Source of the DNA: Promicromonospora soli | GTDB lineage: Bacteria > Actinomycetota > Actinomycetes > Actinomycetales > Cellulomonadaceae | DNA: 64,000 nt | Assembly: GCF_014653785.1 (NCBI RefSeq) | Contig: NZ_BNAS01000004.1 | Location: forward strand, 1 to 64,000 | Direction: 5' to 3' | Part shown: positions 8,533 through 34,710 of the stretch, in pieces | Layout of the letters: every line of letters starts with the position of its first letter | Position numbering within the stretch: the stretch's first letter is position 1 | The notes under the pieces: model-generated | What the model saw: only the letters and a program-made list of their open reading frames with translations | Told to the model about the DNA's origin: nothing | Databases searched by the model: none | Program-made: the position numbers and the translations under genes

Positions 8533-9234
8533 TCAGGGACGAACCGGCGCCGGTCGGTAGGCCGACACCGTCGGCTCGCCCGCCAGCCAGAGGCGCCAGG
8601 GGAACCGGTCGGCGCTGCCGCCCTCGCCGCTCACGCCCACGCGTGGGCCGGTCCGGACGACGGCGGCGGAGGTCTCGACAGGCTCGACCAGTGAGCGCTC
8701 CACCAGCGAAGGCTCGACCGCCGGAGTCTCCAGCACGACGGCACCGTGCGGGTCGGTGACGTCGGCGCCGTCGTCGGACAGGTGCAGACCGAGCGCCACC
8801 GTGAGCCGGGCCGGTCCACGCGCGATGTCGCGGTCGGCCCGGACAACTCCTGAGGCGAGGCGACGGGAGCGGGCGAGGTCCGCGCCGTCGACCACCTCGC
8901 CCGCCCGGAGCAGCACCGCCGACGCCGTCCCCGGCGGCCCGCACACCACGTTCACGCAGTGGTGCAACCCCAGGTGCCGGTACACGTACAGGTGCCCGGG
9001 CTCGCCGAACATCGTCGCGTTCCGCCGGTTCTGACCGCGATAGGCGTGCGAACCCGGGTCGGTCTCGCCGTCGTACGCCTCGACCTCGGTGAGGCGCAGG
9101 GAGACGACGCCGTCGGCGGTGCGCCGGGTGAGTGTGGCTCCCAGGAGGTCCCGGGCGACGTCGAGGACGGGCCGGAGGTACCAGTCCCTGTCGGGGACCA
9201 CGCCAAGGGCGCCTGTCGCTGGATCACGCACCAC
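8533..9234 (-). CDS. DNA-3-methyladenine glycosylase (AAG/MPG family)
   Basis: Removes alkylated purines from DNA in base-excision repair. The core shows LLGATLTRRTADGVVSLRLTEVEAYDG (catalytic Glu), SHAYRGQNRRNATMFGEPGHLYVYRHLGLHHCVN and GPARLT, all typical of AAG. I place the start at GTG 9234, giving 233 residues. The in-frame ATG at 9300 lies inside a dispersed palindrome, so the extra MEVSTGL residues are repeat-encoded and probably not translated. A second copy of the repeat (8671-8690) lies inside the C-terminal part and encodes SLVEPVET, an insertion that the family lacks. The exact start is uncertain. Confidence 0.88.
   Translation of the reverse strand: MVRDPATGALGVVPDRDWYLRPVLDVARDLLGATLTRRTADGVVSLRLTEVEAYDGETDPGSHAYRGQNRRNATMFGEPGHLYVYRHLGLHHCVNVVCGPPGTASAVLLRAGEVVDGADLARSRRLASGVVRADRDIARGPARLTVALGLHLSDDGADVTDPHGAVVLETPAVEPSLVERSLVEPVETSAAVVRTGPRVGVSGEGGSADRFPWRLWLAGEPTVSAYRPAPVRP
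8671..8690. repeat. Dispersed GGTCTCGACAGGCTCGACCA element inside the glycosylase gene
   Basis: This 20-mer is identical to 9303-9322. On the gene strand it encodes LVEPVET in frame between two conserved parts of the protein. Confidence 0.75.
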
Positions 9235-9282
9235 CCGATCATGCCCGCCCTGGCCGTGGGTTGCGAAAGTCGGTGTGGTCAA

Positions 9283-9315
9283 GCCTGTCGAGACCTCCAT
9301 CGGGTCTCGACAGGC
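9283..9315. repeat. Palindromic copy of the dispersed CTCGACAGGC element
   Basis: Perfect 13-base arms, GCCTGTCGAGACC (9283-9295) and GGTCTCGACAGGC (9303-9315), flank a 7-base loop. It lies between the glycosylase and the permease-prefix gene and could act as a terminator for the latter. Confidence 0.8.
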
Positions 9316-9333
9316 TCGACCACCGCGACGTGG

Positions 9334-10680
9334 TTAGGCGAAGGCGAACACCGGCGGGAAGACGACCACCACGATCACCGCCCACACGGCGTAGGCCGGC
9401 AGGTAGCGGGTCTGCCACCGCTCGACCGGGCCGAACGTCCGCGCGCCCCGGAGGAACCCGACCGAGAGCCAGGCCGACCAGGCCAGGTGCACCAGCAGCA
9501 CGAGGTTCAGGCCCAGAGCTGCCACCTTGTTCGCGCTGAACCCGAACTCGGCGATGCGGGTAAGCATCGCTGTCAGGGCCACCGCGTCGACCGCGAGCGC
9601 CGCGATGACGAGGACTACCTGGAGTACGTCGAACAGACCGGGCGGCGCGAGCGCGTCGCGCGCGGAGATCGAGTAGAGCAGCAGGCTCAGGACCAGCACG
9701 AGCACCGCGTCCATGAGGATGAGCAGCTCGCGGTCGACGTCGAGCAGGCCGCCGGCCGTCGAGAAGGCTCCGAGGAAGACCAGGAGCATCACGATGGTGA
9801 GCGGCGTGAAGACGCGGGTCAGGACCGGCGCGATGTTCTCGACGACGTTCTGCTTGGCCTCGACCAGCCAGGCGGCGACGATGAGCGCGCCGGGCACGGC
9901 GAACGGGAGGATCCAGGCCTCGAGGACGGGCTCGAAGTCGACCCCGACCAGCGCGAGCGTGCCGACCGTGAGCCCGATCAGCACGCCGCCGCCCAGGGCA
10001 AGCAGGACGTAGTAGATCGCGAGCTCGCCGGTGAAACGGACGTAGTCCATGCGGCGCGCGTCGGACCGCCATCGGCCGCCCGCGTACGCGACCGAGACGA
10101 GCGCCCACAGGGCGACTATCGCGTGGCTGGCCGCGAGGAACTCGGTCGAGCCCATGGGCTCGAACGGGTACACGTTCAGCACGACGGCGAGCAGCGCGAA
10201 CGGGATCAGGAGCGCCGCGGCGACCTGCCAGGTGAGCTTCCGCTTCCAGGCGAAGTAACCGGCGAGGAACGGCAGCACGAGCAGGCCGACGTTGCGCATG
10301 ATCGCCGTCTCGTCGTCGATCAGCTCGATCCCGGCCTTCACCGCGATGCCGGCGCCGATGGCGAGCGCCAGGACGACGCCGAGCTCACGCCAGGGGTTGG
10401 TGCCGCCGTCGGCCCGCTCGGGGACGAGGACGAGCTGCTTCCAGAGCCGGTCGGAGTGCTCGCGTGCGAACTCGCGGGAGACCTCGTCGAGGTTGCCCAT
10501 GCGCTTCACGGAGACCAGGAACGCCTCGTCGTCGTCGAGCCCGGTGCTGGTCAGGTCGGTCACCTGCTCGCGCAGGTGGTCCTCCATCTCCTCGACGTCG
10601 CCGGCCGAGATGGCCCGACGCCGCTGGACGTACCCGCGCCACTGGTCGATCTGGGACTCGAGCTGCTCGTGATCGCTCAT
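9334..10680 (-). CDS. Permease-prefix-domain integral membrane protein
   Basis: A 448-residue protein beginning MSDHEQLESQIDQWRGYVQ. The first 90 residues form the helical permease prefix domain often found fused to ABC permeases; here it is followed by about ten hydrophobic segments (ELGVVLALAIGAG through VIVVVVFPPVFAFA) with no ABC motif. Function is unknown. Its start overlaps the stop of the PadR gene by one base (TGATG), so the two are one operon. PadR regulators paired with such membrane proteins commonly control their partner, and that is the most likely relation here. Confidence 0.85.
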   Translation of the reverse strand: MSDHEQLESQIDQWRGYVQRRRAISAGDVEEMEDHLREQVTDLTSTGLDDDEAFLVSVKRMGNLDEVSREFAREHSDRLWKQLVLVPERADGGTNPWRELGVVLALAIGAGIAVKAGIELIDDETAIMRNVGLLVLPFLAGYFAWKRKLTWQVAAALLIPFALLAVVLNVYPFEPMGSTEFLAASHAIVALWALVSVAYAGGRWRSDARRMDYVRFTGELAIYYVLLALGGGVLIGLTVGTLALVGVDFEPVLEAWILPFAVPGALIVAAWLVEAKQNVVENIAPVLTRVFTPLTIVMLLVFLGAFSTAGGLLDVDRELLILMDAVLVLVLSLLLYSISARDALAPPGLFDVLQVVLVIAALAVDAVALTAMLTRIAEFGFSANKVAALGLNLVLLVHLAWSAWLSVGFLRGARTFGPVERWQTRYLPAYAVWAVIVVVVFPPVFAFA

Positions 10681-11042
10681 CACGCCCACCCCTCCGCCAC
10701 GGTAGGCGGCATCTGGACGTCCTGCCACACCTGCTTCAGGGCGTCGGCGACGACCGACCACTGCGCCTGCCGTTCGGCAAGTGCCTCCCGGCCCGCACGC
10801 GTGATCGCGTAGTGCTTGCGCCGGCGTCCGGCCTCGGACGTGCCCCAGGTCGCCTGCACGTACCCGAGCCGTTCGAGCCGGTGGAGCAGGGGGTAGAGCA
10901 TGCCGTCGGTCCACTGCATGCGGCCGCCGGAGAGCTCGTTGACGCGCTTGAGGATCGCGTAGCCGTACGACTCGCCGTCGGCCAGGATGCCGAGGACGAG
11001 CGGCGTGGCCGAGGCCGCGACCAGGTCCTTGTCGATGTGCAC
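10680..11042 (-). CDS. PadR-family transcriptional regulator
   Basis: A 120-residue winged-helix repressor. The family signature is clear: TPLVLGILADGESYGYAILKRVNELSGGRMQWTDGMLYPLLHRLERLGYVQATWG, followed by a basic wing EAGRRRKHYAITRAGREAL. A short C-terminal helix should mediate dimerisation. The start is a GTG at 11042 with GGAGA about seven bases upstream. A 22-base palindrome 24 bases upstream is the probable autoregulatory site. It is translationally coupled to the membrane protein that follows. Confidence 0.93.
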   Translation of the reverse strand: MHIDKDLVAASATPLVLGILADGESYGYAILKRVNELSGGRMQWTDGMLYPLLHRLERLGYVQATWGTSEAGRRRKHYAITRAGREALAERQAQWSVVADALKQVWQDVQMPPTVAEGWA

Positions 11043-11065
11043 TCAGAATCTCCGATGCCTAGGAC

Positions 11066-11087
11066 TGCTAGGGATTGAACCCTAGCA
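11066..11087. promoter_or_regulatory. Palindromic operator candidate upstream of padR
   Basis: TGCTAGGG (11066-11073) and CCCTAGCA (11080-11087) are perfect inverted arms around ATTGAA. The site lies 24 bases before the PadR start codon, where it would cover the promoter. Confidence 0.6.
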
Positions 11088-11145
11088 GAGCAAGGCATGG
11101 TTGATCTAGGTGTGGACGGCCGCGCATCCGGCTCTGCCGGTCGGG

Positions 11146-13059
11146 CTACTCCAGCTCGATGCTCGTGATCGTCACCGGTTGCTTCGGTTGCCCGTTGCCC
11201 TCGTTGCTCCCTTGCGCCGCGACCCGTTGAAGGATGTCCATACCTGAGGTGACCTTGCCGAACACGGTGTGCCCGTAGGAGTCCGTGGGGATCTCCGAGT
11301 CGCCGTACACGAGGGAGAACTGAGCGGCCGAGTATCCACTGCCGTTGAACCTCATGACGAGACTGCCGACTGGATACACGCCGTCGTCCGGGACGTTCTC
11401 CGGCGGCCCGAAGAGGTAGCCCGGATTCCCGTCACCGCTGAATGTGGGGTCCCCGCAGTTGAGACGGTACGGGCCAGCGGTCTGGAGCTCGTGACATCCG
11501 GTGCCGTCGTAGTAGCCACCTCGGGCGAGCTCCACGAAGACCGCGACGGCGGTCGGCGCCGAGACCCCATCGAGCTCGACCTCGATGTCGCCCAAGCAGG
11601 TCTTCAGCGTGGCGTGCCACTTCCGGTTCTCGGAGGCCGACGCGTCGTCGGGAAGGTCATAGGTCTCCCGAGGCACCCGCACCGGGTCCAGACAGGGGGC
11701 CGCGGGGGGAGCGTTGGTGGCGGCCTGGGACGGGTCGGGTTCCGCGTCCGCATCGACGTCAGTGACGCCGGGACTGGTCCCACCGCCCGCCACCACAGGG
11801 TCGTCGTCACCCGCCGGAAGCAGCGTCCGAACCAGGAAGAACCCGCCGACCGCGAGCACGAGAACGCCCGCGACAGCCACGGCGGGCCAGATCCATCTGC
11901 GGCTGGCCGAGGCCGCGCCAGGCCGTGTCACCGGCGCGGCCGATTGCGCGGCGGACGGCCTCAGCTCCGTCGCGTCCAGCTCGCCCCGGAGATGGGTCTC
12001 CGGAGCGGCGACCTGGATGTCCGACGCCGGTGGCGGCACGGCCTGTTCGCTCCGCAGGGGGCCCGCCGGCCGCGCCGGAATCGGCTCCGGACCTGACACA
12101 CGGACTTGCCCTGATGTGGACTGCCCGGATTGCGCGAGCGACAGCGGCCCGGTCGCACTCCCGGTGCGCTCCGCGATCATCGTCGCGATCCCATCGGTGA
12201 GCCACGGCCGGGTCGACGCCGCTCCGGTCATCACCGTCGCCGCATCGCCCGAGTCGGCGAGCCAGTCCAGCACCTCCGGCACCCGGGGCCTGGCCGCCGG
12301 ATCCTTGGCGAGGCAGGCCATCACCATGGGCTTCAGCTCCTCGGGGACCCCGGTCATATCCGGTTCACCGTGCACCACCCGGTAGACCATGGTCTCCAGC
12401 CGGCCGGTCCCGAACGGGTTATGACCCGAGACTGCGAAGGTCAGGACACCACCGAACGAGAACACGTCACCGGCCGCCTCGACGGGTTGCCCGAGCGCCT
12501 GCTCCGGCGGCATGTACGCGGGCGTCCCCATCAGGGCGTCAGCACTGGTGAACGACGTCACGTCGAGAGCACGGGTGATACCGAAGTCGATGACACGCGG
12601 GCCGTCGGCCGCAATGATGATGTTGGCGGGCTTCAGGTCACGATGCACCAGTCCGGCGGCGTGAATGGCCTGGAGCCCTTCGGCCAGCCCGGCACCGATC
12701 GCCAGGACGGCTTCGATGGGCAGCGGGCCGTGCGTGTCGACGGCGGCCTGGAGCGAGGGGCCGTTGATGTAGTTGGTGGCCATCCACGGCCGGTCGGAAT
12801 CGGTGTCGGCGTCGACCACCTCGGCGGCGTAGAAACCGCCCACCCGCCGCGCGGCGGCGATCTCCCGCTCGAAGCGCTGCCGGAAGTGCGGGTCGGCAGC
12901 CAGCTCGCCCCGGATTACCTTGAGCGCGACCTCGCGACCACCGCGGGAACGGCCCAGGTAAACAGCTCCCATACCGCCACGGCCCAGGCGGCCGAGCAGT
13001 CGATACGGGCCGATTTCACGAGGGTCGGCGGCCAGGTCCAGAGGTTCCAGGAATGTCAC
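11146..13059 (-). CDS. Membrane Ser/Thr protein kinase with C-terminal cyclophilin-like domain
   Basis: A 637-residue PknB-type (Hanks) kinase. The intracellular domain has the glycine loop GRGGMGAVY (26-34), catalytic Lys47, HRDLKPANI (139-147), DFG (158-160) and TPAYMPPEQ. After a Pro/Ala linker, one membrane helix spans 390-411. The outer part (about 477-637) is a cyclophilin-type peptidyl-prolyl isomerase fold, with GDIEVELDG, GYYDGTGCHEL, GCHEL-NCGDP and YGHTVFGKV. The residue that is normally the catalytic Arg (C-H-R-L in related actinobacterial proteins) is Glu524, so isomerase activity is doubtful and the domain may act as a sensor. The GTG start at 13059 has TAGGTT six bases upstream. 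Confidence 0.9.
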   Translation of the reverse strand: MTFLEPLDLAADPREIGPYRLLGRLGRGGMGAVYLGRSRGGREVALKVIRGELAADPHFRQRFEREIAAARRVGGFYAAEVVDADTDSDRPWMATNYINGPSLQAAVDTHGPLPIEAVLAIGAGLAEGLQAIHAAGLVHRDLKPANIIIAADGPRVIDFGITRALDVTSFTSADALMGTPAYMPPEQALGQPVEAAGDVFSFGGVLTFAVSGHNPFGTGRLETMVYRVVHGEPDMTGVPEELKPMVMACLAKDPAARPRVPEVLDWLADSGDAATVMTGAASTRPWLTDGIATMIAERTGSATGPLSLAQSGQSTSGQVRVSGPEPIPARPAGPLRSEQAVPPPASDIQVAAPETHLRGELDATELRPSAAQSAAPVTRPGAASASRRWIWPAVAVAGVLVLAVGGFFLVRTLLPAGDDDPVVAGGGTSPGVTDVDADAEPDPSQAATNAPPAAPCLDPVRVPRETYDLPDDASASENRKWHATLKTCLGDIEVELDGVSAPTAVAVFVELARGGYYDGTGCHELQTAGPYRLNCGDPTFSGDGNPGYLFGPPENVPDDGVYPVGSLVMRFNGSGYSAAQFSLVYGDSEIPTDSYGHTVFGKVTSGMDILQRVAAQGSNEGNGQPKQPVTITSIELE

Positions 13060-13065
13060 CGGGCA

Positions 13066-13071
13066 AACCTA
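13066..13071 (-). promoter_or_regulatory. Candidate -10 box (TAGGTT) of the kinase gene
   Basis: On the minus strand TAGGTT is followed by TGCCCG and then the GTG start at 13059, a leaderless arrangement with no Shine-Dalgarno sequence. Confidence 0.55.
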
Positions 13072-13113
13072 CCGAAACCGGCCAAGCACGTGTGACGGTT
13101 TGGGACCGTAGCA

Positions 13114-13132
13114 GGCGTCAGGCGCTGACGCC
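13114..13132. other. Small perfect hairpin between divergent genes
   Basis: GGCGTCAG and CTGACGCC pair around GCG. It lies in the 148-base gap between the divergent kinase and lipoprotein genes, so it is more likely a regulatory or protein-binding site than a terminator. Confidence 0.35.
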
Positions 13133-13207
13133 CCGAGCTGGCCAGGCCGATCGTCGCCGTCTGAGAGATGCTGTTCGGGTGAGCCCGCCGAACTTCTGGA
13201 GGCACCC

Positions 13208-14272
13208 GTGAGCGCCATGGTCGCCGTCCGGGGTCTGGGAGCGGGGGGCCGTTCCCGGTGGCCCGCCGGGGCACGACGATCCGTCATCGCCCTTGCGCTC
13301 CTCGCCCTCCTGACCGCCTGCGGCGGGTCCGCGGACACCGATGAGGGCTCCGGCACACCGTCGGCGTCGCCCTCTCAGTCCGACACCGGGTCCGGGGGCG
13401 CAAGCGGAGGGGATGCCACGCACCTCGCGCCAGGGGAGCTGATCGTGTTCGAGAAGGCCCAGCCCGGAGCCGAGGAGACCGACCTGTACGCGATCGGGCA
13501 GGACGGCAAGCCGACGTTGGTGAACAGCCCGGGTAACTACCCGCACTGGTCGCCCGACGGCAGCCAGCTCGCGTTCCTCGCCTGCCTGGACCCGCCCGAG
13601 TGCGCCACCGGCGCCGCGCTGTACGACCGCTCGACCGGCGACGTCCGTGGCTTCGTCATGCCGGACCCGGACCTCTTCACCGCTTGCGCGGTATGGGCAC
13701 CGTCCGGCAAGGAGCTCGCCTGTGAGGGGCTGAGCGACGACGATCCGACGCGGAACGGCGTCTACACCGTCCGCGCTTCGGACGGCAAAGGGCTGAAGCG
13801 AATTACCGAGAACACGGGGGGCGGAAACGACTTTCCTCTGGCGTACTCCCCCGACGGCAGTCAGTTACTGATTGATCGCGCGGACCCGTCGGGCGGATCG
13901 GCGCGCGCCTTGTTCGTCACGCCGCTCAGTGGTGGCCAGCCCGAGCGAATCACCCCCTGGGGGCTCACCGACGACGTCGCGAGCTGGTCCTCCGACGGTC
14001 GAACCATCGTCTTCGGCACTGGCGGGGCCCTGTACCGCGTGAACCCCGACGGACAGGGCTTGACCAGTATCAACCTGCAGCTGCCGGACGGGTCCTCCGG
14101 AGCGACCGCCTTCGACGTCGCCTTCTCTCCGGACGGCCAGCGAATCGTCTTCTCCCTCGCCGATCCAGTGCCGGGCATCTACACGGCCAACCTCGACGGC
14201 AGCGACGTCAAGCAGCTCACCACCGGTCCGACGGATGGTCACCACTCGACCTGGGGTCCCGCAGTCGACTAG
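13208..14272 (+). CDS. Lipoprotein with TolB/WD40-like beta-propeller
   Basis: A 354-residue exported lipoprotein. The signal sequence ends in the lipobox LLTAC (cleavage before Cys at about residue 37), followed by a Ser/Gly-rich linker. The rest holds repeated propeller blades with the motif WSPDGSQLAF, YSPDGSQLLI, WSSDGRTIVFG and FSPDGQRIVFS, as in TolB and PD40 repeats. The ligand is unknown. The GTG start has GGAGG five bases upstream. It is divergent from the kinase gene, and being an outer-surface protein it could in principle relate to the kinase's outer domain, but nothing shows this. Confidence 0.85.
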   Translation: MSAMVAVRGLGAGGRSRWPAGARRSVIALALLALLTACGGSADTDEGSGTPSASPSQSDTGSGGASGGDATHLAPGELIVFEKAQPGAEETDLYAIGQDGKPTLVNSPGNYPHWSPDGSQLAFLACLDPPECATGAALYDRSTGDVRGFVMPDPDLFTACAVWAPSGKELACEGLSDDDPTRNGVYTVRASDGKGLKRITENTGGGNDFPLAYSPDGSQLLIDRADPSGGSARALFVTPLSGGQPERITPWGLTDDVASWSSDGRTIVFGTGGALYRVNPDGQGLTSINLQLPDGSSGATAFDVAFSPDGQRIVFSLADPVPGIYTANLDGSDVKQLTTGPTDGHHSTWGPAVD

Positions 14273-14303
14273 GCCGCCGGCACACCCAAGGAACCAGTCA
14301 CAG

Positions 14304-14858
14304 TCACGCGACGACGGCACCCAGGCCGTCCAGCCGCACGTCGGCACGATCCCGGGTGCGCTCGCGCTCGAAGTGGGCCGCCTCGTCCTCCATCCAGCGC
14401 AGCCAGTGGTCCCGCGCGTCGTCGCCGTCGCGCGCAAGGCCACGGCGTAGCCGCTCGACGTCGTCCGCCTCGACCCAGATACGGAACGCGCCCAGCGCGT
14501 CCACCTGGCGCGCGGCCGCGCCGCAACCCTCCACCACCAGATGGGCCGACGGCGGGACGTCGTGCCACTCCGCCCAGGCGTCCGCGGTCCAGTCGTAGCG
14601 CCGATAGCGGGGGCGCTCCCCCGCGCTCATCGGGTCCAGGACCCACGTCCGGAGGTTCGCGGCGCCGCCGTCCGGGCCTGAGGCCCAGCCCTCGTAGAGG
14701 TCGTCCATGTGGACCACCGGGGCCTCGAGCGCGTCGCCCAGCTGGGCGGCCAGCGTCGTCTTGCCGGAACCGGCCGGCCCGTCGACGCACACCAATCGCG
14801 CGTCGACGGACCGGATCCGGTCCAAGAGCTCCCCAAGGACGGTTGGTGAGACGGTCAC
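14304..14858 (-). CDS. P-loop kinase (uridine kinase-like)
   Basis: A 184-residue cytoplasmic P-loop protein starting MTVSPTVLGELLDRIRSVDARLVCVDGPAGSGKTT. The Walker A motif GPAGSGKTT is at about 28-36, a DDLYEGW motif near residue 60 resembles the substrate-binding region of uridine/phosphoribulokinase-type enzymes, and an Arg-rich lid follows (RRYDWTADAWAEW). The phosphate acceptor is not determined by the sequence. The start is a GTG with no clear ribosome site. It converges with the lipoprotein gene. Confidence 0.8.
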   Translation of the reverse strand: MTVSPTVLGELLDRIRSVDARLVCVDGPAGSGKTTLAAQLGDALEAPVVHMDDLYEGWASGPDGGAANLRTWVLDPMSAGERPRYRRYDWTADAWAEWHDVPPSAHLVVEGCGAAARQVDALGAFRIWVEADDVERLRRGLARDGDDARDHWLRWMEDEAAHFERERTRDRADVRLDGLGAVVA

Positions 14859-14874
14859 GCCCCCGACCCACCCT

Positions 14875-14939
14875 TTGTTGTGGGCGTGACCGTTGCGACT
14901 TCCCGCCCGTTATAGGCGCAAAGTTCGCGCCCACAGCAA
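14875..14939. repeat. Long palindromic intergenic element, copy 1
   Basis: TTGTTGTGGGCG at the left pairs with CGCGCCCACAGCAA at the right, with GCGCAAAG-like inner arms. It matches copies at 62181-62241 and 63864-63927. It begins 11 bases past the argH stop, so it probably terminates the arginine operon. Confidence 0.75.
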
Positions 14940-14949
14940 GAGAGGGGGG

Positions 14950-17678
<2,729 letters not shown>

Positions 17679-17729
17679 GATTGACGATCTCTTTCCGATG
17701 GTGGTTTCAGGTGCGATTGTGGTGTGTCT

Positions 17730-18238
17730 TCAGGCGCTGAGCGCGAGGAAGCGTCCCGCCAGCGCGGCCCCGTCGGGGTCGCGGGCGATGACGAGGATCG
17801 TGTCGTCCCCGGCGATGGTGCCGAGCATCCCGGGAAACACTGAATGGTCGATCGCCGAGGCCAGCAGGTTCGCCGCCCCCGGCGGGGTGCGGAGCACCAC
17901 GAGGTTGCCCGACGACTCGGCCGAGACCAGCAGCTCCTTGGCGAGCCGGGCCAGCCGCGCGGACAGGTACTCCTCGCCCGCGTCCGACTGAGTGCTGCGG
18001 TCCCCGCCCTCGCCCGGCACCGCGTAGACCAGCGTGCCGTCCGAGCCGCGCACCTTCTCGGCCTGCAGCTCGATCAGGTCGCGCGAGAGCGTGCCCTGCG
18101 TGACGCTCACACCGTCGGCTGCCAGGGCCTCGGCGAGCTCGGCCTGTGAGTGTATGGCGTTGCGGCTCACGATCTCCGTGATCCGTGCGTGCCGGGCCGC
18201 CTTCGTCGTCGCGGTGGTCGCGACCTGCTTGATGACCA

Positions 18239-18239: not shown

Positions 18240-20432
<2,193 letters not shown>

Positions 20433-24767: not shown

Positions 24768-24782
24768 CGTCGAGGAGCTGCG

Positions 24783-25541: not shown

Positions 25542-25607
25542 CCGGCCGCTCGGCCTCCATGACAAGAAGCGTGGCCGATGAATCAAGAAGCGCAGCCACG
25601 CTGGTCG

Positions 25608-25613
25608 TAGGCT
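25608..25613 (+). promoter_or_regulatory. Candidate -10 box (TAGGCT) of the F420-type oxidoreductase gene
   Basis: TAGGCT is followed by GCAAAT and the ATG at 25620, a leaderless arrangement. Confidence 0.5.
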
Positions 25614-25619
25614 GCAAAT

Positions 25620-26396: not shown

Positions 26397-26402
26397 GGTC
26401 TC

Positions 26403-26433
26403 GGCCCGGGCCGGCCGGCGTCGGCCCGGGCCG
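26403..26433. terminator. GC-rich inverted repeats between convergent genes
   Basis: Two copies of CGGCCCGGGCCG-type palindrome (about 26402-26413 and 26422-26433) fill the 39-base gap between the convergent F420-type oxidoreductase and GH15 genes. This would work as a terminator in either direction, though no U tract is present. Confidence 0.4.
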
Positions 26434-26435
26434 TC

Positions 26436-28310
26436 TCAGGCGACCTCCTCCGCGGCGGACGGGGCGGCCCCCTCCCCGGCCGGGACGACGACGCCCTCGA
26501 CCACGCCCGCCTCCACGTCTCGGGCGGTGACGCCGTGGCCGAGCCGCAGCGCACTGTTGACCAGACCCAGGTGGCTGAACGCCTGCGGCGTGTTGCCGAG
26601 GTGCCGTCCGGTGGGCACGTCGTACTGCTCGCTCAGCAGACCCAGGTCGTTGCGCAGCGTGAGCAGCCGCTCGAACAGAGCGACGGCCTCGTCCACCCGC
26701 CCGATGCCGTGCAGCGCATCGACCAGCCAGAAGCTGCACACCAGGAACGTCGCCTCCTCGCCGGGCAGGCCATCCACCCTGCCGTCGAGGTGGGTGTCGT
26801 AACGCCGCAACAGCCCGTCCTGGCAGAGCTCGCGCTGCACAGCCTCCACGGTGCCGACCACGCGGGGGTCGTCCCAGGGCAGGAAGCCGACCTGCCCGAT
26901 CAGCAGCAGGGAAGCGTCCAGCCCCTGGGACCCGTAGAACTGCGTGAAGGTATTCCGGTCCGGGTCGAACCCGTGCGTGCACACGTCGTCGTGGATCTGG
27001 TCGCGCACGGCACGCCACCGCTCGACCGGCTCGTCCACGAGCCCGAACTCCTCGCAGGCGCGCACGGCTCGGTCGAACCCGGCCCACGCCATGACTCTCG
27101 AGTGCACGAACGCACGCTGCGGGCCACGCACCTCCCAGAGTCCGTTGTCGAGGTCGTCCCAGTGCTCCTCCAGGTAGTCCAGGAGCGCCTTCTGCACGCG
27201 CCACGCCTCCGGGTCGGTCGCCAGGCCGGCCGTGCGCGCCAGGTGCAGGGCGTCGAGCGTCTCGCCCCAGACGTCGATCTGGAGCTGGCCGACCGCGCCG
27301 TTGCCGATCCGCACCGGACCGGAACCCTCGTAGCCGGGCAGCCAGTCGATCGTGTACTCGGGCAGGCGCCGCCGTCCGTCGAGGCCGTACATGATCTGCA
27401 GGTCGGCCGGGTCACCCGCGATTGCGCGCAGCAGCCATGCCCGCCACGCGTGCGCCTCGTCGATGAACCCCGTGCCGATCAGGGCCTGCAGCGTGAACGC
27501 GGCGTCGCGCAGCCAGCAGTACCGGTAGTCCCAGTTGCGCGTGCCGCCCAGCTCCTCGGGGAGCGACGTCGTGGCGGCGGCGACTATCGCCCCGGTCGGG
27601 GCGTAGGTCAGCGCCTTCAGCGTGATCAGGGACCGGTGCACGGCGTCGGCCCACAGGCCCTCGTAGGTGGATCCGGCGATCCATGACCGCCAGAAGTCCT
27701 CGGTGTCACGCAGCGCGCCCTCCGCGTGGACGGGCAGCATCGTGGCGAGGTGGGACGCGTGGTGCGTCAGCACGAACGGCACCCGGTCGCCCGCGCCCAC
27801 GGAGAAGCGACCGTGGAGGGCCGAGCTGGCGGCAACCCCCTCGTGCGTGATGTCAACGCCCGTGTCCAGCCGGACGGAGTCCGGTCCCGCCACTGCGCGC
27901 AGGGCGCCACCTTCCGGCATGACCCAGGGCACGACGTGCCCGTAGTCGAACCGGAGCTTTAGCTCAGTGGTCATGGGGACGTTGCCGCTGATCCCCTCCA
28001 CGATCCGGACGAGATCGGCCTGGTCACCACGCGGCGGCATGAAGTCGATCACGCGGACCTGGCCCTCGGGCAGGTCCCACTCCGTCTCCAGGATCAGGGT
28101 GCCTTCCCGGTACTGGCGCCGGGTGCACTCACCGCCCGCGGCGGGCCCGAGGCGCCACGAACCGTGGCGCTCGTCCCCGAGCAGGGCAGCGAAGCACGCC
28201 GGGGAGTCGAACCGCGGCAGGCACATCCAGTCGATCGCCCCGTCGCGACCGATCAGGGCTGCCGCCTGTAGGTCTCCGACAATTCCGTAATCTTCGATTC
28301 GGCTTGCCAT
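26436..28310 (-). CDS. Glycoside hydrolase family 15 protein (glucoamylase/trehalase type)
   Basis: A 624-residue cytoplasmic enzyme starting MASRIEDYGIVGDLQAAALIGRDGAIDWMCLPRFDSPACF, the classic N-terminal beta-sandwich of this bacterial GH15 group. The (alpha/alpha)6 barrel has GGTRNWDYRYCWLRDAAFTL and GEEATFLVCSFWLVDALHGIGR, near the two catalytic glutamates. Related actinobacterial proteins act on trehalose or alpha-glucans; specificity cannot be read here. The ATG at 28310 follows TACGCT by seven bases, so it is preferred over an ATG at 28340. Confidence 0.92.
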   Translation of the reverse strand: MASRIEDYGIVGDLQAAALIGRDGAIDWMCLPRFDSPACFAALLGDERHGSWRLGPAAGGECTRRQYREGTLILETEWDLPEGQVRVIDFMPPRGDQADLVRIVEGISGNVPMTTELKLRFDYGHVVPWVMPEGGALRAVAGPDSVRLDTGVDITHEGVAASSALHGRFSVGAGDRVPFVLTHHASHLATMLPVHAEGALRDTEDFWRSWIAGSTYEGLWADAVHRSLITLKALTYAPTGAIVAAATTSLPEELGGTRNWDYRYCWLRDAAFTLQALIGTGFIDEAHAWRAWLLRAIAGDPADLQIMYGLDGRRRLPEYTIDWLPGYEGSGPVRIGNGAVGQLQIDVWGETLDALHLARTAGLATDPEAWRVQKALLDYLEEHWDDLDNGLWEVRGPQRAFVHSRVMAWAGFDRAVRACEEFGLVDEPVERWRAVRDQIHDDVCTHGFDPDRNTFTQFYGSQGLDASLLLIGQVGFLPWDDPRVVGTVEAVQRELCQDGLLRRYDTHLDGRVDGLPGEEATFLVCSFWLVDALHGIGRVDEAVALFERLLTLRNDLGLLSEQYDVPTGRHLGNTPQAFSHLGLVNSALRLGHGVTARDVEAGVVEGVVVPAGEGAAPSAAEEVA

Positions 28311-28317
28311 CGCCACC

Positions 28318-28323
28318 AGCGTA
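28318..28323 (-). promoter_or_regulatory. Candidate -10 box (TACGCT) of the GH15 gene
   Basis: Minus-strand TACGCT is followed by GGTGGCG and the ATG at 28310; leaderless pattern. Confidence 0.5.
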
Positions 28324-28362
28324 GGTTCGCCGTGGCCCACTCACCAGACGACGCAGGTCCGT

Positions 28363-28401
28363 CTGTCAGGCGTACAGGCCACTGACCTGTACGCCTGACA
28401 G
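28363..28401 (-). terminator. Perfect 16-bp hairpin after the first secreted paralogue
   Basis: CTGTCAGGCGTACAGG (28363-28378) and its exact complement (28386-28401) flank a 7-base loop. It starts 10 bases past the stop of the secreted-protein gene ending at 28412 and lies before the GH15 promoter, so it probably insulates the two. Confidence 0.7.
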
Positions 28402-28411
28402 AGGGCAAGGG

Positions 28412-29617
28412 TCAGAACGACGAGGCGTCCGCCGCGTAGACCCACCGGTAGCCCGGGTGCTCGCCGAGCGTCCACAGGTAGTCACGGGTGGGGTCGTACG
28501 ACAGGTCTTCCGGCCCGACCGTCAGCGCGTCGCCGTGCCGCACCATCGCACCCGACGGCGCCACGAACGTATGCAAGTCGCCGTCGGAGTTGGGGTTTGC
28601 GAAGTCGGTGCCGTCGCTCTGCGAGTAGAAGAACTCACCGTTGATCGCCGTCGAGCCCTGGACGCTCTCCAGGTCGACCCGGTAGGCCTCGGTCGCCTTG
28701 ATGATGCCGTCCGAGGCGGGCTTCAGGTACCGGTTGGTGTAGTCGATCGGGACGCGGATCGTCCGTACCTGGGCGCCGTTCGCGATCTCAGTCGACGTGC
28801 GGTACTCGCTGACGATCACAGAGTCGGGGCTGCTGGTGCGGTCGAGCGACACCGAGGAGTGCTGAAGCTGCGTGTACCCGTTGACCGTCGAGTCGGTGAA
28901 CTTCGCGGTCTGCGGCAGCACGTACTTGTAGTCGAACGCCTGGTAGGAGCCGTCGGGCTGGCGCCCGATGGCGGAGGCGTTCCCTGTCGAGACCTCCCAC
29001 AGGTGGTTCAGGTCGAACACGCGGAAGCCACCGCCGGTGTCCGCTACGTAGAGGAGGTTGCCGTACCACATGATGCCGCCGGCATGGACGCTGACCGGCG
29101 TGAACGACGGCGAGCTCGTGGTACCGCTCGGCTCGACCAGCAGGATGTGCCGGTACGGCGGCGCCGACGCGCTCGCCGACAGGTTCGACACGCTGATCCG
29201 GACGCCCTTGGCGATGCCGTCCGCGGCGTCGTCGTACCAGCTCACAAGGTTGATGCGCTTGCCGTCGTAGGTACCCTCTCCGAGCGCGTCGGAGCTGGTC
29301 GTGATGCCCTGCGGCATCCAGTCGGTCGTGTCCTGGTCGCCCGCGTTCCAGCAGTAGTACGCGGTGCGGTTCGTGACCGACGGGGCGCTGTCACAGATCG
29401 GGGTGCGGTTGGCGTCGTCGGCCACCGCTCCCATGGTTACGTTCGGCAGCGCCGAGTCGAGTGCGCCGATCAGGGACGACGACGTCTCGGACAGCGTGTA
29501 GCGGAAGTTGCTCGCCGTGAGCGTGGTTGCGGCTGCCGCTGGCTGCGCTGTCGCCGACACGAACAGGGCGCCCGCAATGAGGCTGCTGAGTATGGTCGCG
29601 GGGCGACGATGGCGCAT
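28412..29617 (-). CDS. Secreted protein of unknown function, tandem paralogue A
   Basis: A 401-residue exported protein. MRHRRPATILSSLIAGALFVSATAQPAAAA is a Sec signal peptide with AxA cleavage. The mature part has motifs shared with its neighbour: TASNFRYTLSETSSSLI, MPQGITTSSDALGEG, HAGGIMWYGNLLYVADTGGGFRVFDLNHLW, FDYKYVLPQT, SVSLDRTS and LTVGPEDLSYDP. The YVADTGGGFRVFD and DLSYDPTRDYLWTLGEH segments look like propeller blades, so a beta-propeller fold is inferred; no function is recognised. Two cysteines (CDSAP, YYCWN) could form a disulfide. The ATG at 29617 has ACGGAGA upstream. Confidence 0.8.
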   Translation of the reverse strand: MRHRRPATILSSLIAGALFVSATAQPAAAATTLTASNFRYTLSETSSSLIGALDSALPNVTMGAVADDANRTPICDSAPSVTNRTAYYCWNAGDQDTTDWMPQGITTSSDALGEGTYDGKRINLVSWYDDAADGIAKGVRISVSNLSASASAPPYRHILLVEPSGTTSSPSFTPVSVHAGGIMWYGNLLYVADTGGGFRVFDLNHLWEVSTGNASAIGRQPDGSYQAFDYKYVLPQTAKFTDSTVNGYTQLQHSSVSLDRTSSPDSVIVSEYRTSTEIANGAQVRTIRVPIDYTNRYLKPASDGIIKATEAYRVDLESVQGSTAINGEFFYSQSDGTDFANPNSDGDLHTFVAPSGAMVRHGDALTVGPEDLSYDPTRDYLWTLGEHPGYRWVYAADASSF

Positions 29618-29648
29618 ATGGGTCTCCGTGGATGCGGGGGGACAGATG

Positions 29649-29706
29649 TATGCACACCGTAAGCGGACATACCCTCTCATACCAGCACCGCCGAACGAAC
29701 GCCGGA
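29649..29706 (-). promoter_or_regulatory. Conserved upstream region of secreted paralogue A
   Basis: Two blocks match the region in front of paralogue B at nearly the same spacing: CGGCGTTCGTTCGG (near 29690-29703) and TACGGTGTGCATA (29661-29649). The stretch between them contains a GGTAT that aligns with GGTAT in the other copy. Confidence 0.5.
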
Positions 29707-29756
29707 CGTACGGCCCAACTCGGGTGACCCGCACGTCCGGCGCATGCCGGATGGTG

Positions 29757-31088
29757 TCAGAACCCGCCAGCGTCGAACGAGTACACCCAGCGGCGGTACG
29801 GGTGTTCACCCAGGGTCCACATCTGGTCGCGGATGGGGTCGTAGGACAGGTCCTCCGGCCCCACCGTCAGCGCGTTGCTGTACTGCGTGAACGAGCCCGA
29901 AGGCGCATCCCACGTGTACAGGTCGCCCCTGGCGGGTCGGTCGAATTTCATGCCGTCGCTGTCCGTGAAGTAGAACTTGCCGTTGATCGCCGTGGAGCCC
30001 TGCACGCCCTCCAGGTCGATGCGGTAGGCCTCTGTCGCCTTGATGATGCCGTCCGAGGCGGGCTTGAGGTACCGGTCCCTGTAGTCGATCGGCACTCGGA
30101 TGGTGCGCACCTGCGCACCGTCGTCGATAGACGACTGCGACTGGTACTCCGTGACGATCACCGAGTCCGGCGTGCTGGAGCGGTCCAGCGACACCGACGA
30201 GTGGCTGAGGTCCTCATCGTCACTAACCTCGGAGTCCAGGAAGCTCGCCGTCTGAGGCAGTACGTACTTGTAGTCGAACGCGTGGAACGTGCCGTCGGCC
30301 TTGCGCCCGATGCGCGAACTGTCACCCGTGGAGACCCGCCACAGGTGGTCCAGGTCGAACACCCGGAACCCGCCGGTCGTGTCCGCCACGTACAGCAGGT
30401 TGCCGTACCACATGATTCCGCCTGCATGGACTTTCACCGACTGGAACGACGGCGAGGTCTCGCTCCCCGTCGGCTCGACGAGCAGGACATGCCGATACGT
30501 CGGTGTGCTCGTCCCGCTCGTCAGGTCCACGACGCTGATCCGCACGCCCTTGTCGATGCCGCCATCGTGGTCGTACCAGCTCGCCATGAGAATTCGCTTG
30601 CCGTCGTACATCCCGACCCCGAGGGCATCGGAGCTGGTGGTGACACCTTGCGGGTACCAAGCGGTGGTGCCCGCGTCGCTGGAGTTCCAGCAGAACGACG
30701 CGATTCGGCGGACCACCGGAGCCGTGCAGGACCGGCCGGTACGGTTGCCGTCGTTCGCAACCGTCGCAAGCGAGACGTTCGGCAGGTCGGCGTCGAGCGC
30801 CGCAATCATTGTCGACGGGGTCTCGCTGAGGTCGTAGCGGAAGTTGCTCGCCGTCAGGCGCGTGGCAGCGGCTGACGGGGCTGCCTGCTGCGCGGTCGCG
30901 TCCGGCTCCGCGGTCGCCGGCACGGAGCCGACGACGGCGGTCGTGCAGGCCAGCAGCCCGGCGGCAAGCACTGCGGCGAGGCGACGGGCTGGTGCACGCA
31001 TGAGCCGCCCTCGTATCGGGCGAGGTCTCGCGATGACGGCGTCCGTGCGTGTGCTCGCCACAGCGAGCGCGGAGCGTCGGTGACGCAT
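29757..31088 (-). CDS. Secreted protein of unknown function, tandem paralogue B
   Basis: A 443-residue homologue of the downstream neighbour, sharing TASNFRYDLSETPSTMI, QGVTTSSDALGVG, HAGGIMWYGNLLYVADTTGGFRVFDLDHLW, YLKPASDGIIKATEAYR and LTVGPEDLSYDP. The N-terminal MRHRR matches that of the other copy, and AAGGAG lies seven bases before this ATG, which favours start 31088. The signal peptide hydrophobic stretch LAAVLAAGLLACTTAVVGS then begins late (about residue 38). An internal ATG at 31001 (MRAPARR) with GAGGG upstream would give a normal-length signal and is a real alternative. Function unknown. Confidence 0.8.
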   Translation of the reverse strand: MRHRRSALAVASTRTDAVIARPRPIRGRLMRAPARRLAAVLAAGLLACTTAVVGSVPATAEPDATAQQAAPSAAATRLTASNFRYDLSETPSTMIAALDADLPNVSLATVANDGNRTGRSCTAPVVRRIASFCWNSSDAGTTAWYPQGVTTSSDALGVGMYDGKRILMASWYDHDGGIDKGVRISVVDLTSGTSTPTYRHVLLVEPTGSETSPSFQSVKVHAGGIMWYGNLLYVADTTGGFRVFDLDHLWRVSTGDSSRIGRKADGTFHAFDYKYVLPQTASFLDSEVSDDEDLSHSSVSLDRSSTPDSVIVTEYQSQSSIDDGAQVRTIRVPIDYRDRYLKPASDGIIKATEAYRIDLEGVQGSTAINGKFYFTDSDGMKFDRPARGDLYTWDAPSGSFTQYSNALTVGPEDLSYDPIRDQMWTLGEHPYRRWVYSFDAGGF

Positions 31089-31117
31089 GGTGGTCTCCTT
31101 GCGTGAGGGGACGATTG

Positions 31118-31176
31118 TGTGCGCACCGTAGGGAGGGTGAAATACCTCCTATGAGTACACCCGAACGAACGCCGGG
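31118..31176 (-). promoter_or_regulatory. Conserved upstream region of secreted paralogue B
   Basis: Contains CGGCGTTCGTTCGG (near 31160-31174) and TACGGTGCGCACA (31130-31118), 43 bases apart against 42 in paralogue A. The conservation suggests shared control of both genes. Confidence 0.5.
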
Positions 31177-31226
31177 CGTCGCCCGCCCACACCGCACCGC
31201 GCCGGGCGTGGTCGCGAAGCTGCTGG

Positions 31227-32138
31227 TCAGCGCCTGGTGAGGGCGTCCGTCAGCGGGTCGCCGCTGCCCGCCGGGAGCACCCGCAGGCGACGGGCCGTTG
31301 CGCCCGTGCCCTGCTCCGCGACGTCGGCCGCCAGCGCCTTCAGCGACTCCGGGGTGTCGTGGGTGACGCGCAGGAACCAGCCCGAGCACGCGTCCAGCTC
31401 GCCCGTCGCTATCGCGTTGACGACGTCGGTCACCCGCTCGACCGGAGTCCACCTGGTGCGGCCCTCGTGCAGCGCCATGCCTGCCGTCATGTCGGTCCGC
31501 ACGACGCCCGGCGCAAGCTCGAAGACGCGGATGCCGTGCCGGAAGCCGTCGTCGTGCAGGTTGGCGCCCATCCGCACCAGGGCGGTCTTGCTCGCGTTGT
31601 ACGCCGAGCTTCCGCCGCTCATCTCGTGCGAGCTCGCCCCCGAGGCCAGATCGATGATCCGGCCCCCGCCGCGCGCGATCATGCCCGGCGCCGCGTAGCG
31701 GCTGAACAGGAACGGCGCGCGCACGTTGGTCTCGAAGACCGACCACCACTCGTCGGGGTCGGCCTCCCACAGGGGGTGCTCCGACTCGATGGCGCCCGCG
31801 TTGTTGACCAGCAGATCGATCGACCCGAGCGCATCCTCCGCCTGCCCGACGGCGGCCCGCACCGCCGCCGGGTCGGACACGTCCGCGGGGAGCACTACCG
31901 CTGTCGCCCCGGCCGCGCGGGCCTCCGCGGCCACGGCCTCGAGCCGCGCGACGTCTCGCGCGAGCAGGGCGACGTCCAGCCCTGCCCGCGCGAGACCAAG
32001 CGCGATCTCCCGGCCGATGCCGCGCGAGGCGCCCGTCACGAGCGCCGTGCGGGCCGGCGGGACCTCGACAGGCAGGTCCTGGGCCTGTCGAGGGGCGCCC
32101 GCCGGATACGGCTCGGCTGCCGAGGGCGTGTCAGCCAC
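31227..32138 (-). CDS. Short-chain dehydrogenase/reductase
   Basis: A 303-residue classical SDR. The cofactor motif TGASRGIG follows TALV near residue 32, with NNAG at about 110 and the catalytic pair in SAYNASK. The substrate is unknown. The GTG at 32138 overlaps the pheT stop (GTGGCTGA), so it is co-translated with pheST. The first 28 residues before VPPARTALVTG are partly encoded by a dispersed palindrome (32063-32093), so the true start could be the later GTG just before TALVTG. The C-terminal 60 residues extend beyond the usual SDR length. Confidence 0.88.
   Translation of the reverse strand: MADTPSAAEPYPAGAPRQAQDLPVEVPPARTALVTGASRGIGREIALGLARAGLDVALLARDVARLEAVAAEARAAGATAVVLPADVSDPAAVRAAVGQAEDALGSIDLLVNNAGAIESEHPLWEADPDEWWSVFETNVRAPFLFSRYAAPGMIARGGGRIIDLASGASSHEMSGGSSAYNASKTALVRMGANLHDDGFRHGIRVFELAPGVVRTDMTAGMALHEGRTRWTPVERVTDVVNAIATGELDACSGWFLRVTHDTPESLKALAADVAEQGTGATARRLRVLPAGSGDPLTDALTRR
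32063..32093. repeat. Palindromic copy of the CTCGACAGGC element at the SDR N-terminus
   Basis: CCTCGACAGGC (32063-32073) and GCCTGTCGAGG (32083-32093) are perfect arms around a 9-base loop. It belongs to the same family as 9283-9315 and encodes part of an otherwise unconserved N-terminal leader. Confidence 0.7.
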
Positions 32139-34710
32139 GCAGCACCGCGCCGACCTTCTCTGCTGCCGACTCCACGACGGCGTCGCGCACCGCACGGACC
32201 TCGTTCGCGGACAGGGTCCGGTCGACGGCACGCAGGCGGAGCGAGTACGCGAGCGACTTCTTGCCGTCGCCCACCTGCTCCCCCGTGAAGACGTCGAACA
32301 GGGCGACGTCCTCGAGCAGCTCGCCGGCGCCGGCCACGATGGCCATCCGCACCGCCTCGGCGGGCACGCCGTCGTCGACCACGAAGGCGAAGTCCTCCTT
32401 GGCCGCGGGGAAAGCCGACACGGGCTTGGCCACGACGGGCTCGCTGGACGCAGCGGCGACCAGAACACTCAGGTCCACCTCGAACGCGGCCGCGCGGGCG
32501 GGCAGCCCCAGCGCTTCGACGACCTTGGGGTGCAGCTCGCCGGCATGGCCGACGACCGTTCCGTCCGTCAGCTCCAGGCGCGCGCAGCGGCCCGGGTGCC
32601 ACGGCATCCGGTCGGGGTCCGCGGAGACGATGATGTCGGCTCCCGCACGCTGGGCCACCAGGCGGGCCGCCGCCAAGGCGTCCGCCCAGCCGGCGGCACG
32701 ACCCGCACCCCACCAGCCGGAAAGCTCGCGCTTGCCGGTCAGCACACCGGCGACCCGGCGCGGCTGGTCCGGAACCGCGGCCGCGAGCGCCGCGAGCTGC
32801 TCGTCCGTGGGGCGCACCCCGCCGGGCAGGGCGGGCGCCGCGGGGGCGTCCGCCCACGGGAGGGTGACCAGGCCGACCTCGTACACCGCGAGGTCGGTCA
32901 GCCCGCGGGACACGTTGCGCCGCACGGTGTCGAGCAGCGTGACCAGCAGGTTCGACCGCATCAGCGGCTTGTCGTCGGCCATCGGGTTGACGAGACGGAG
33001 GGAGACGCGGCGCGGGTCGTCCGCGGGCAGCCCGAGCGCGTCGTACTCCGGGGTGCCGACGAACGGGTAGCTGAGCGTCTCGACGAAGCCGGCCTCGGCC
33101 AGCGCGCGCGCGACGGAGCGGCGCGTGCGCTGCTCTGCCGTGAGCCCCCGGCCGCCCGAGGCAGCAGGGAGCACCGACGGCACCTGGTCGTAGCCCTGGA
33201 TGCGCACGACCTCCTCGACCAGGTCGGCAGGCTCGGTGAGGTCGGGCCGCCAGGACGGCGGGGTGACCGTGAGGGTCTCGACCGGCTCGACCACCGAGGA
33301 GCCGTCGGTCACCGTGCAGCCGATCTCCTCGAGCGTGCTGCGCACCTGCTCCGGGGTGTACTCGACACCCACGAGCCGGGTGGGCTCGGTGACCTTGAGC
33401 GCGATCGGCTTCTGCGGAGTCGTCTCGGCAGTGTTGTCGAGGTCGCTCACGGCCGGGTCGGCGGTGCCGCCGCCCAGCTCGACCAGCAGGTCGACGACGC
33501 GCTGCGCCGCGACCGCCGGCAGGAGCGGGTCGACACCGCGCTCGAACCGCTTCGCGGCCTCGCTCGAGAGCTTGTGCCGGCGCGCCGTGCGGGCGACCGT
33601 GATCTGGTCGAAGTGCGCCGCCTCGACGAGCACGTCCGTCGTGGTGTCGCCGACCTCCGACGACGCTCCACCCATCACACCGGCGAGGCCGAGAACGCGG
33701 CTGCCCGCGCCTTCGGGCGAGTCGGTGATCAGGAGGTCCTCGGTGTCCAGGGCGCGGTCGGCGTCGTCCAGCGTGGTGAGGCGCTCGCCAGAGGCAGCCC
33801 GGCGCACCACGATCGGCGCGGAGACCTGCGCGAGGTCGTAGGCGTGCAGCGGCTGCCCGAGGTCGAGCATCACGTAGTTCGTGATGTCCACGGCCAGGGA
33901 GATGGACCGCATGCCGGATCCCTCGAGGCGGTGCTTCATCCATGCGGGGGTGGGCGCGGAGGGGTCGATGCCGCGCACGATGCGCGTCACGAACCGGTCG
34001 CAGCCCACGACGCCGTTGATCGGCGCCCCGTCCTGGACCCGTACCTCGAACCCGTCGGGGGTCGCGGACGGCTCGGCGCCCGTGGCCAGGCCGCGGTCGG
34101 TGAACTTGGCACCCGTGGAGTGGGCGTACTCGCGCGCCACGCCGCGGTAGCTGAACGCGTACCCGCGGTCCGGGGTCACGTTGATCTCCAGGACCTCGTC
34201 GCCGAGGCCCAGGAGCGCTATCGCGTCCTGGCCGGGCGTGAGGTCCTCTGCCGCGAAGCCCATGTCCCGGGGCAGCACGATGATGCCGTGCGCGCCGTCG
34301 TCACCCAGGCCGAGCTCGGCGGTGGAGCAGATCATGCCGTCGGACACGTGCCCGTAGGTCTTGCGGGCCGCGATGGCGAACGGCCCCGGCAGCACTGTGC
34401 CGGGCAGGGACACGACCACGAAGTCGCCGGGCGCGAAGTTGTGCGCGCCGCAGACGATTCCGCGGGATCCCTCGATGTTGTGCTCCGGGCCGACGTCGAC
34501 CCGGCACCAGTTGATCGTCTTGCCGTTCTTCTGCGGCTCGGGGCTCATCTCGAGCACTCGGCCCACCACGAGGGGGCCGGTCACGGCCGCGCCGTGGATG
34601 GCCTCTTCTTCCAGGCCGACCTTCACGAGGTCGGCCGCGAGCCGCTCAGCGGTGAGGTCCGCGGGCAGCTCGACGTGGTCCGCGAGCCAGTCCTTCACGA
34701 TGAGGGGCAC
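32131..34710 (-). CDS. pheT: Phenylalanyl-tRNA synthetase beta subunit
   Basis: An 859-residue subunit of the alpha2-beta2 PheRS. Domains in order: tRNA-binding EMAP-like domain (GRVLEM to HNFAPGDFVVV), B3/B4 editing domain, B5 domain (TVTPPSWRPDL), catalytic-like core and the C-terminal anticodon-binding domain ending AAEKVGAVLRG. Before TVTPPSWRP the peptide VVEPVETL is encoded by a dispersed repeat (33274-33296), an insertion not expected in the family. The GTG start at 34710 lies one base after the pheS stop and begins PLIVKDWLADHVELP. Confidence 0.96.
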   Translation of the reverse strand: MPLIVKDWLADHVELPADLTAERLAADLVKVGLEEEAIHGAAVTGPLVVGRVLEMSPEPQKNGKTINWCRVDVGPEHNIEGSRGIVCGAHNFAPGDFVVVSLPGTVLPGPFAIAARKTYGHVSDGMICSTAELGLGDDGAHGIIVLPRDMGFAAEDLTPGQDAIALLGLGDEVLEINVTPDRGYAFSYRGVAREYAHSTGAKFTDRGLATGAEPSATPDGFEVRVQDGAPINGVVGCDRFVTRIVRGIDPSAPTPAWMKHRLEGSGMRSISLAVDITNYVMLDLGQPLHAYDLAQVSAPIVVRRAASGERLTTLDDADRALDTEDLLITDSPEGAGSRVLGLAGVMGGASSEVGDTTTDVLVEAAHFDQITVARTARRHKLSSEAAKRFERGVDPLLPAVAAQRVVDLLVELGGGTADPAVSDLDNTAETTPQKPIALKVTEPTRLVGVEYTPEQVRSTLEEIGCTVTDGSSVVEPVETLTVTPPSWRPDLTEPADLVEEVVRIQGYDQVPSVLPAASGGRGLTAEQRTRRSVARALAEAGFVETLSYPFVGTPEYDALGLPADDPRRVSLRLVNPMADDKPLMRSNLLVTLLDTVRRNVSRGLTDLAVYEVGLVTLPWADAPAAPALPGGVRPTDEQLAALAAAVPDQPRRVAGVLTGKRELSGWWGAGRAAGWADALAAARLVAQRAGADIIVSADPDRMPWHPGRCARLELTDGTVVGHAGELHPKVVEALGLPARAAAFEVDLSVLVAAASSEPVVAKPVSAFPAAKEDFAFVVDDGVPAEAVRMAIVAGAGELLEDVALFDVFTGEQVGDGKKSLAYSLRLRAVDRTLSANEVRAVRDAVVESAAEKVGAVLRG
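33274..33296. repeat. Dispersed GGTCTCGACCGGCTCGACCA element inside pheT
   Basis: Differs from the 20-mer at 8671-8690 and 9303-9322 at one base. It reads VVEPVET in the pheT frame. Confidence 0.7.

Follow-up and report, generated by a model that had tools for sequence, protein, structure and literature searches.

Repetitive extragenic palindromic (REP) elements combine hairpin folding, inverted pairing, placement near the 3' ends of genes and high copy number, as set out in the available parts of PMC3733652 and PMC3116915. Inverted REP doublets (REPINs) are tied in the latter text to REP-associated tyrosine transposases (RAYTs). The portions of PMC3733652 at hand describe a REP superfamily that lacks a transposase of its own and REPs near 3' ends, and report REPs inside genes, often those for repair proteins and tRNA synthetases; members of its CGTC superfamily carry CGTC (or TGTC or CCTC) at one end, a stem of 8-9 bp, a loop of 4-5 bases and a CCA-like tail. 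For the Actinomycetota, REP counts for three members are given in the accessible part of PMC12306157. Here we examine a 20-base repeat in Promicromonospora soli (the host), found within the first 64,000 nucleotides of contig NZ_BNAS01000004.1 (the window), and find that it is probably a REP-like, non-autonomous palindromic element that is copied in trans and filtered by selection.

A sequence-only reading of the window had placed the 20-mer unchanged at 8671-8690 and 9303-9322 and with one change at 33274-33293, and all three positions hold; a fourth copy, on the minus strand at 9276-9295 and one mismatch from the 20-mer, had been overlooked. These four matches at up to 3 mismatches compare with a mean of 0.03 in shuffled sequence. 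Two are solitary plus-strand copies inside minus-strand genes, where both read VEPVET on the minus strand: that at 8671-8690 (no mismatches) lies in a length-variable segment of the gene for DNA-3-methyladenine glycosylase (AAG; 8533-9201), and that at 33274-33293 (one mismatch) in a length-variable loop of pheT (32131-34710). The other two form an inverted pair with a gap of 7 bases, which was scored as intergenic because it stands between the AAG gene and its neighbour; its plus-strand right half, at 9303-9322 and without mismatch, stops 11 bases short of the end of a minus-strand gene at 9334-10689. The expectation of a repeat family above chance level was borne out by a genome-wide count, which, with up to 2 mismatches allowed, gave 193 copies for the 5.38-Mb host genome (96 forward and 97 reverse, or about one per 28 kb) and none in the reversed control. 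More detailed analyses used a sample of 1,659,002 host bases (31% of the genome) made up of the window, 400 kb taken regardless of matches and stretches picked for holding matches, with genes called by a simple custom script; here a limit of 3 mismatches gave 176 copies, compared with 5 in the reversed sequence. High copy number around a common consensus is as expected of a REP.

The consensus is GGTCTCGACARGCTCGACCA followed by the tail SCGR, and around solitary copies there is little signal beyond these 24 bases. The unit of about 24 bp is an imperfect 20-base hairpin with a 4-base tail, its stem consisting of 4 bp plus 3 bp past a bulge around a 5-base loop, with a CCA end to the hairpin and with GGTC and SCGR at the two ends of the unit. 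Such a short palindromic unit provides the stem-loop that defines REP elements; folded as RNA, the 24-mer alone is weak and bulged at -5.2 kcal/mol, and the pair reaches -48.1. Copies are solitary or arranged in inverted pairs, with 47 of the 52 neighbouring pairs (no more than 100 bases apart) inverted, 36 of them minus-plus and 11 plus-minus. Spacing is also preferred, at a gap of 2 in 16 of the 36 minus-plus pairs and a gap of 4 in 7 of the 11 plus-minus pairs, so that both the inverted doublets and the preferred spacing typical of REPINs are present. None of the seven gap-4 pairs lies within a called gene, and a gap of 2 places both halves in the two reading frames favoured in genes, for example as VEPVET-x-VSTGST. 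As a separate observation, paired copies at L306 9316-9356 and L307 11369-11409 have further partial tail units on both sides in inverted symmetry, as if growing outward.

Set beside the GTAG REPs and REPINs in the available text of PMC3116915, the repeat shares inverted doublets, preferred spacing, hairpin folding, high copy number and singlets that are possible remnants; unlike them, it has no GTAG tag, and no RAYT or other Y1 gene was found in the host, in 24 further genomes or in the nine copy-rich genomes of the class. The likeness to the CGTC REPs, including Rickettsia RPE-4 and RPE-6, as portrayed in the parts of PMC3733652 at hand, is a short hairpin with a 5-base loop and CCA end, dimers in inverted arrangement, the lack of any known dedicated transposase, residence inside genes (those for repair proteins and tRNA synthetases among them), and placement near 3' ends. 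Unlike those elements, the present repeat begins with GGTC and has a core stem of 4 bp with a bulge rather than one of 8-9 bp. Because neither tag is present, the stem is not of CGTC length and no link to a RAYT was found, we place the repeat outside both superfamilies: it works like a REP yet belongs to neither the GTAG nor the CGTC group. Rickettsia RPE-1, cited in the same portion of PMC3733652, resembles it in producing in-frame peptides in unrelated proteins; RPE-1 is longer, and the units described here span 20-50 bp with local tandem growth and reside in high-GC actinobacteria. When the available PMC3733652 text was searched for six names of genera or groups, no actinobacterium was found, and in open-licence papers no description of this repeat family was found, the peptides VEPVET, VSTGSTT and VSTSSTT occurring in none among the matches listed.

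Copy numbers differ sharply between related genomes. In the genus, copies are present in 11 of 13 genomes and range from 0 to 202, with the low end represented by G394 and G404 (none) and G400 (one). Across the family, 35 of 150 genomes carry copies, and across the class at least one copy occurs in 33 of 394 genomes and at least eight in 9. In other genera of the family, G427 has 168 copies compared with none in three congeners, and G506 has 163 compared with 0 to 6 in its congeners. G436 has 602 copies in 3.8 Mb (about one per 6 kb), compared with 0 to 244 in its sampled congeners.

The clearest evidence of movement comes from two sister species, G403 with 202 copies and G397 with 30, the latter a lower bound because the G397 assembly is 83% complete (210 contigs), which leaves the status of empty sites unaffected. 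Ten G403 loci could be placed in G397, a set that excludes loci close to the end of a stretch and loci whose flanks had no match. Five of the ten proved empty there, with 94-99% identity between the flanks, three were occupied in both species, one was decayed in G397 and one was a conserved look-alike. The empty sites include the one in GcvP, and filled/empty cases occur both between and inside genes. That five of ten loci are filled in one species and empty in the other supports mobility, and with it the part of the sequence-only reading that had the element spreading into coding DNA. Reverse mapping of six G397 loci yielded one weak match (2 mismatches) lacking a G403 counterpart, and a comparison of G402 with G403 gave no clean empty site.

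The copies are not distributed evenly with respect to genes. Among 124 loci in the host sample, 66 are coding and 58 intergenic in DNA that is 0.89 coding and partly selected for matches, and the unselected 464 kb contain 12 coding and 7 intergenic loci in DNA that is 0.90 coding; copies are depleted within genes relative to coding content. REPs in general are mainly extragenic and near 3' ends; here enrichment outside genes and at 3' ends coexists with a coding share of 66/124 (12/19 in the unselected part). Genes flank 57 of the intergenic loci on both sides. Of these loci, 37 lie between convergent genes, an arrangement found in 16% of spacers (binomial p ~4e-16), 17 between tandem and 3 between divergent genes, and at 53 of the 57 the nearest gene end is a 3' end.

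This convergent excess also speaks for the idea that the repeat is a selected DNA or RNA site (an mRNA 3'-end hairpin, an uptake signal or a chromosome-protein site) that accumulates through usefulness and not through transposition, which we consider quite unlikely. The 80 nt past stop codons do fold more stably with a copy than without (mean -44.1, n=38, vs -33.1, n=508), and chosen copies at shared sites remain near consensus. The DNA uptake sequences of Neisseria and Haemophilus, too, occur as inverted pairs after genes and also within genes. The present repeat, however, is far sparser than those sequences, its host density being low for an uptake signal, and it is missing from close species, the congeners with one copy or none doing without it. 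An intrinsic terminator was considered and rejected, as no T-run follows the pairs (T makes up 0.115 of the 12 bases past paired copies vs 0.165 in intergenic DNA).

Within genes, the copies are concentrated in two frames. The sequence-only reading had the element keeping an open frame in one orientation, which does not hold: all six frames are stop-free and both orientations are about equally used, each mainly in one frame. The 42 solitary coding loci (up to 2 mismatches) encode VSTGST (19), VE[PL]VET (18), GLD[RK]LD (3), SRQARP (1) and WSSLSR (1), with GRACRD in none; in codon usage VSTGST and GLDRLD cannot be told apart. This bias toward two hydrophilic peptides fits the removal of harmful insertions and is best read as selection leaving two hydrophilic peptides, one per orientation. 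The host genes involved include those of core enzymes, and the ones assigned above curated cut-offs are RuvA, NAD synthase, GcvP, Fpg, IleS, CoaBC, RlmC, dihydropteroate synthase, RsmA/KsgA, an ATP-dependent DNA ligase, a RecB-like nuclease/helicase, AAG and PheT; Pfam assignments add prolyl oligopeptidase (POP), an M18 aminopeptidase, a proline dehydrogenase/aldehyde dehydrogenase and others. PriA and rhamnulokinase matched only below NCBIfam cut-offs, and Dxs was cut by a stretch end.

The same sites appear to be prone to further growth. Of 41 solitary coding copies, 14 have a partial copy no more than 80 bp away, compared with 147 of 4000 control positions, and tail tandem repeats occur in single species in POP and GcvP. 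In the distant genome G146 a called gene contains six VSTSSTTEDG-like units in succession, and in G373 a called gene contains three VSTGSTTRT units. The tandem arrays noted lie at L291 16525-16694, L292 1262-1538 and L294 1524-1597, in G146, G237 and G373, with periods of 30 and 27 in called genes and, for example, 47 outside genes.

The two window genes, both of which match their DNA-3-methyladenine glycosylase and PheT models above cut-offs, carry the peptide in frame as had been proposed, with VEPVET from residue 172 of AAG and VVEPVET from residue 473 of PheT. That the two families otherwise lack these residues is true of many relatives, but several Promicromonospora share them. Among 80 named PheT orthologues a VEPVE-like peptide is present in three, all Promicromonospora, and missing from 77; PheT of three other Promicromonospora (L090, L091 and L149) lacks it, and its site corresponds to a six-residue gap against the solved PheT 7k9m. 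The nearest relatives of host PheT are those of Promicromonospora sp. AC04 (94%), P. umidemergens (91%) and P. iranensis (88-89%). For AAG, 12 other genomes of the genus show the peptide present in three, eroded in one and missing in eight. In AC04/G399 (L091, L177), PheT is 94% identical to that of the host and AAG only 76%, suggesting unequal histories of the two genes.

The loops of eight further genes were compared through 79 orthologous segments, drawn from the matches listed for 17 queried gene sites; Fpg and AllC gave no usable orthologues for loop alignment. Within 4 mismatches of the repeat were 19 of the 79 segments vs 14 of 1500 random coding segments, and in four genomes with 0-7 copies the figure was 1 of 25. 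At all six comparable genes the host loop is longer than in both zero-copy species, by 1 to 9 residues. On a small tree built from flank sequence, in which some nodes are unsupported, the minimum number of presence changes is 3 for GcvP, 4 for POP, 3 for AAG, and 1 each for IleS and RlmC.

Several results nevertheless weigh against a trans-copied, selection-filtered element, and some concern these same genes. The RuvA site has equal length in the host, G395 and G396, and therefore no net insertion is visible there. The POP site is occupied at one position both in the host and in 4 of the 11 congeners examined, and shared positions such as this fit old insertions as well as new. Together with the related set of species that carry the AAG peptide, which suggests that some sites may be inherited, these are the observations that favour dispensing with a mobile element and attributing VEPVET and VSTGST to convergent low-complexity drift in linkers, or to ancestry followed by loss elsewhere. 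Such an account is nonetheless highly improbable: the same 20-mer stands between genes and on both strands while the reversed control has none, the PheT peptide is confined to three of the named orthologues, and the empty sister-species sites, GcvP included, largely refute it. A further difficulty is that in 16 chosen shared-site pairs, among codons for the same residue, third-position differences affect 12 of 111 within the repeat vs 423 of 1646 in the flanks, a comparison biased toward orthologues that visibly carry the peptide and hence a lead only. Lower divergence of the repeat than of its flanks at these chosen sites is not explained by pure neutral decay, and it may come from orthologue choice, copy renewal or constraint.

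The remaining difficulties concern the mechanism of transposition. No target duplication or exact repeat ends could be read at the compared sites, because flanks and tails also change; with regard to miniature inverted-repeat transposable elements, no clean target duplication was seen and the search for a parent transposon covered Y1 only. PF01797, the family of Y1 transposases including RAYTs, had no match in the host, in 24 further genomes or in the nine class genomes with at least eight copies. Since 64 of 394 class genomes do match, the search works in this class, and the absence of matches from the host, the 24 further genomes and the nine copy-rich ones therefore leaves the classical RAYT route unsupported: the Y1 gene flanked by REPs that characterizes RAYT systems was found neither in the host nor in the 24 others. 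Nor did 1.66 Mb of the host and 20 stretches from G402, G403, G146, G237, G365 and G373 contain a recurrent copy-flanked gene. The host sequence has six genes flanked by copies, and such genes were rejected as the mover, their products being unrelated (a dehydrogenase, binding proteins, an asparaginase, an ABC ATPase and others) among ten proteins annotated from both copy-flanked sets, which include some but not all of the flanked genes.

A classical REP whose RAYT or other Y1 transposase has been lost, or missed by the profile, and whose copies are mostly relics, would account for this absence, and the hairpin, the inverted pairs, the 3'-end placement and the copy number are all REP features in the parts of PMC3733652 and PMC3116915 available. 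Transposases may also disappear after amplification. We regard this as rather unlikely, given the PF01797 result, the single copy present in each of three genomes that do have Y1 matches (G214, G232 and G315), and the filled and empty sites, whose closely similar flanks suggest fairly recent movement.

Possible carriers were also sought. Two viral contigs contain the exact minus-strand 20-mer, no phage record matches the 50-base consensus of the pair at E up to 0.1, and five plasmid records match it at 80-85% identity under the same limit. The 754-kb Arthrobacter plasmid NZ_CP012477.1 has 12 places resembling the paired repeat, the best of them 80% identical.

For the REP-like element copied in trans, the sequence of events may be envisaged as follows. 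A trans-acting enzyme would make the copies, perhaps on a single-stranded hairpin, and insertion would be roughly indifferent to genes. Selection would then clear copies from promoters, conserved protein cores and bad frames, so that survivors would be found just downstream of stop codons or, where the frame yields the hydrophilic VEPVET or VSTGST, within flexible loops. Inverted pairs of the REPIN type would form a very stable hairpin, and within a loop the tail would repeat or erode, probably by slippage. A benefit to the host would not be required, and pairs past stop codons may affect mRNA 3' ends incidentally. A fuller version is more tentative and somewhat less likely than not. In it, an enzyme that does not belong to the known Y1/RAYT group moves the hairpin repeat, which amplifies in patchy bursts in several actinobacterial families and acts as a continuing source of in-frame disordered linkers in core enzymes; permissive loops would receive it again and again, and turnover would hold the copies near consensus.

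If the preferred reading is true, the dispersal of REP-like DNA does not require a RAYT, and the contrasts in copy number (202 vs at least 30 in G403 and G397, and 168 vs 0 among congeners of G427) make the mover findable through gene content. The copies would also constitute a natural experiment, showing where core enzymes have loops that can accommodate a short insertion of standard form. When VEPVET or VSTGST segments derived from the repeat turn up in annotated proteins of these bacteria, they should not be taken as conserved motifs.

No Rfam family scored above its cut-off in the window, L053 or L046. At 32063-32093, where a perfect palindrome on the core of the 20-mer had been described, the sequence is in fact an 11+9+11 inverted repeat that comes no closer to the 20-mer than 6 mismatches, and for this reason it was left out of the copy count; among random coding 95-mers, 6-8 mismatches to a 19-base form of the consensus are usual. 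It remains an inverted repeat with perfect arms, situated near the end of pheT.

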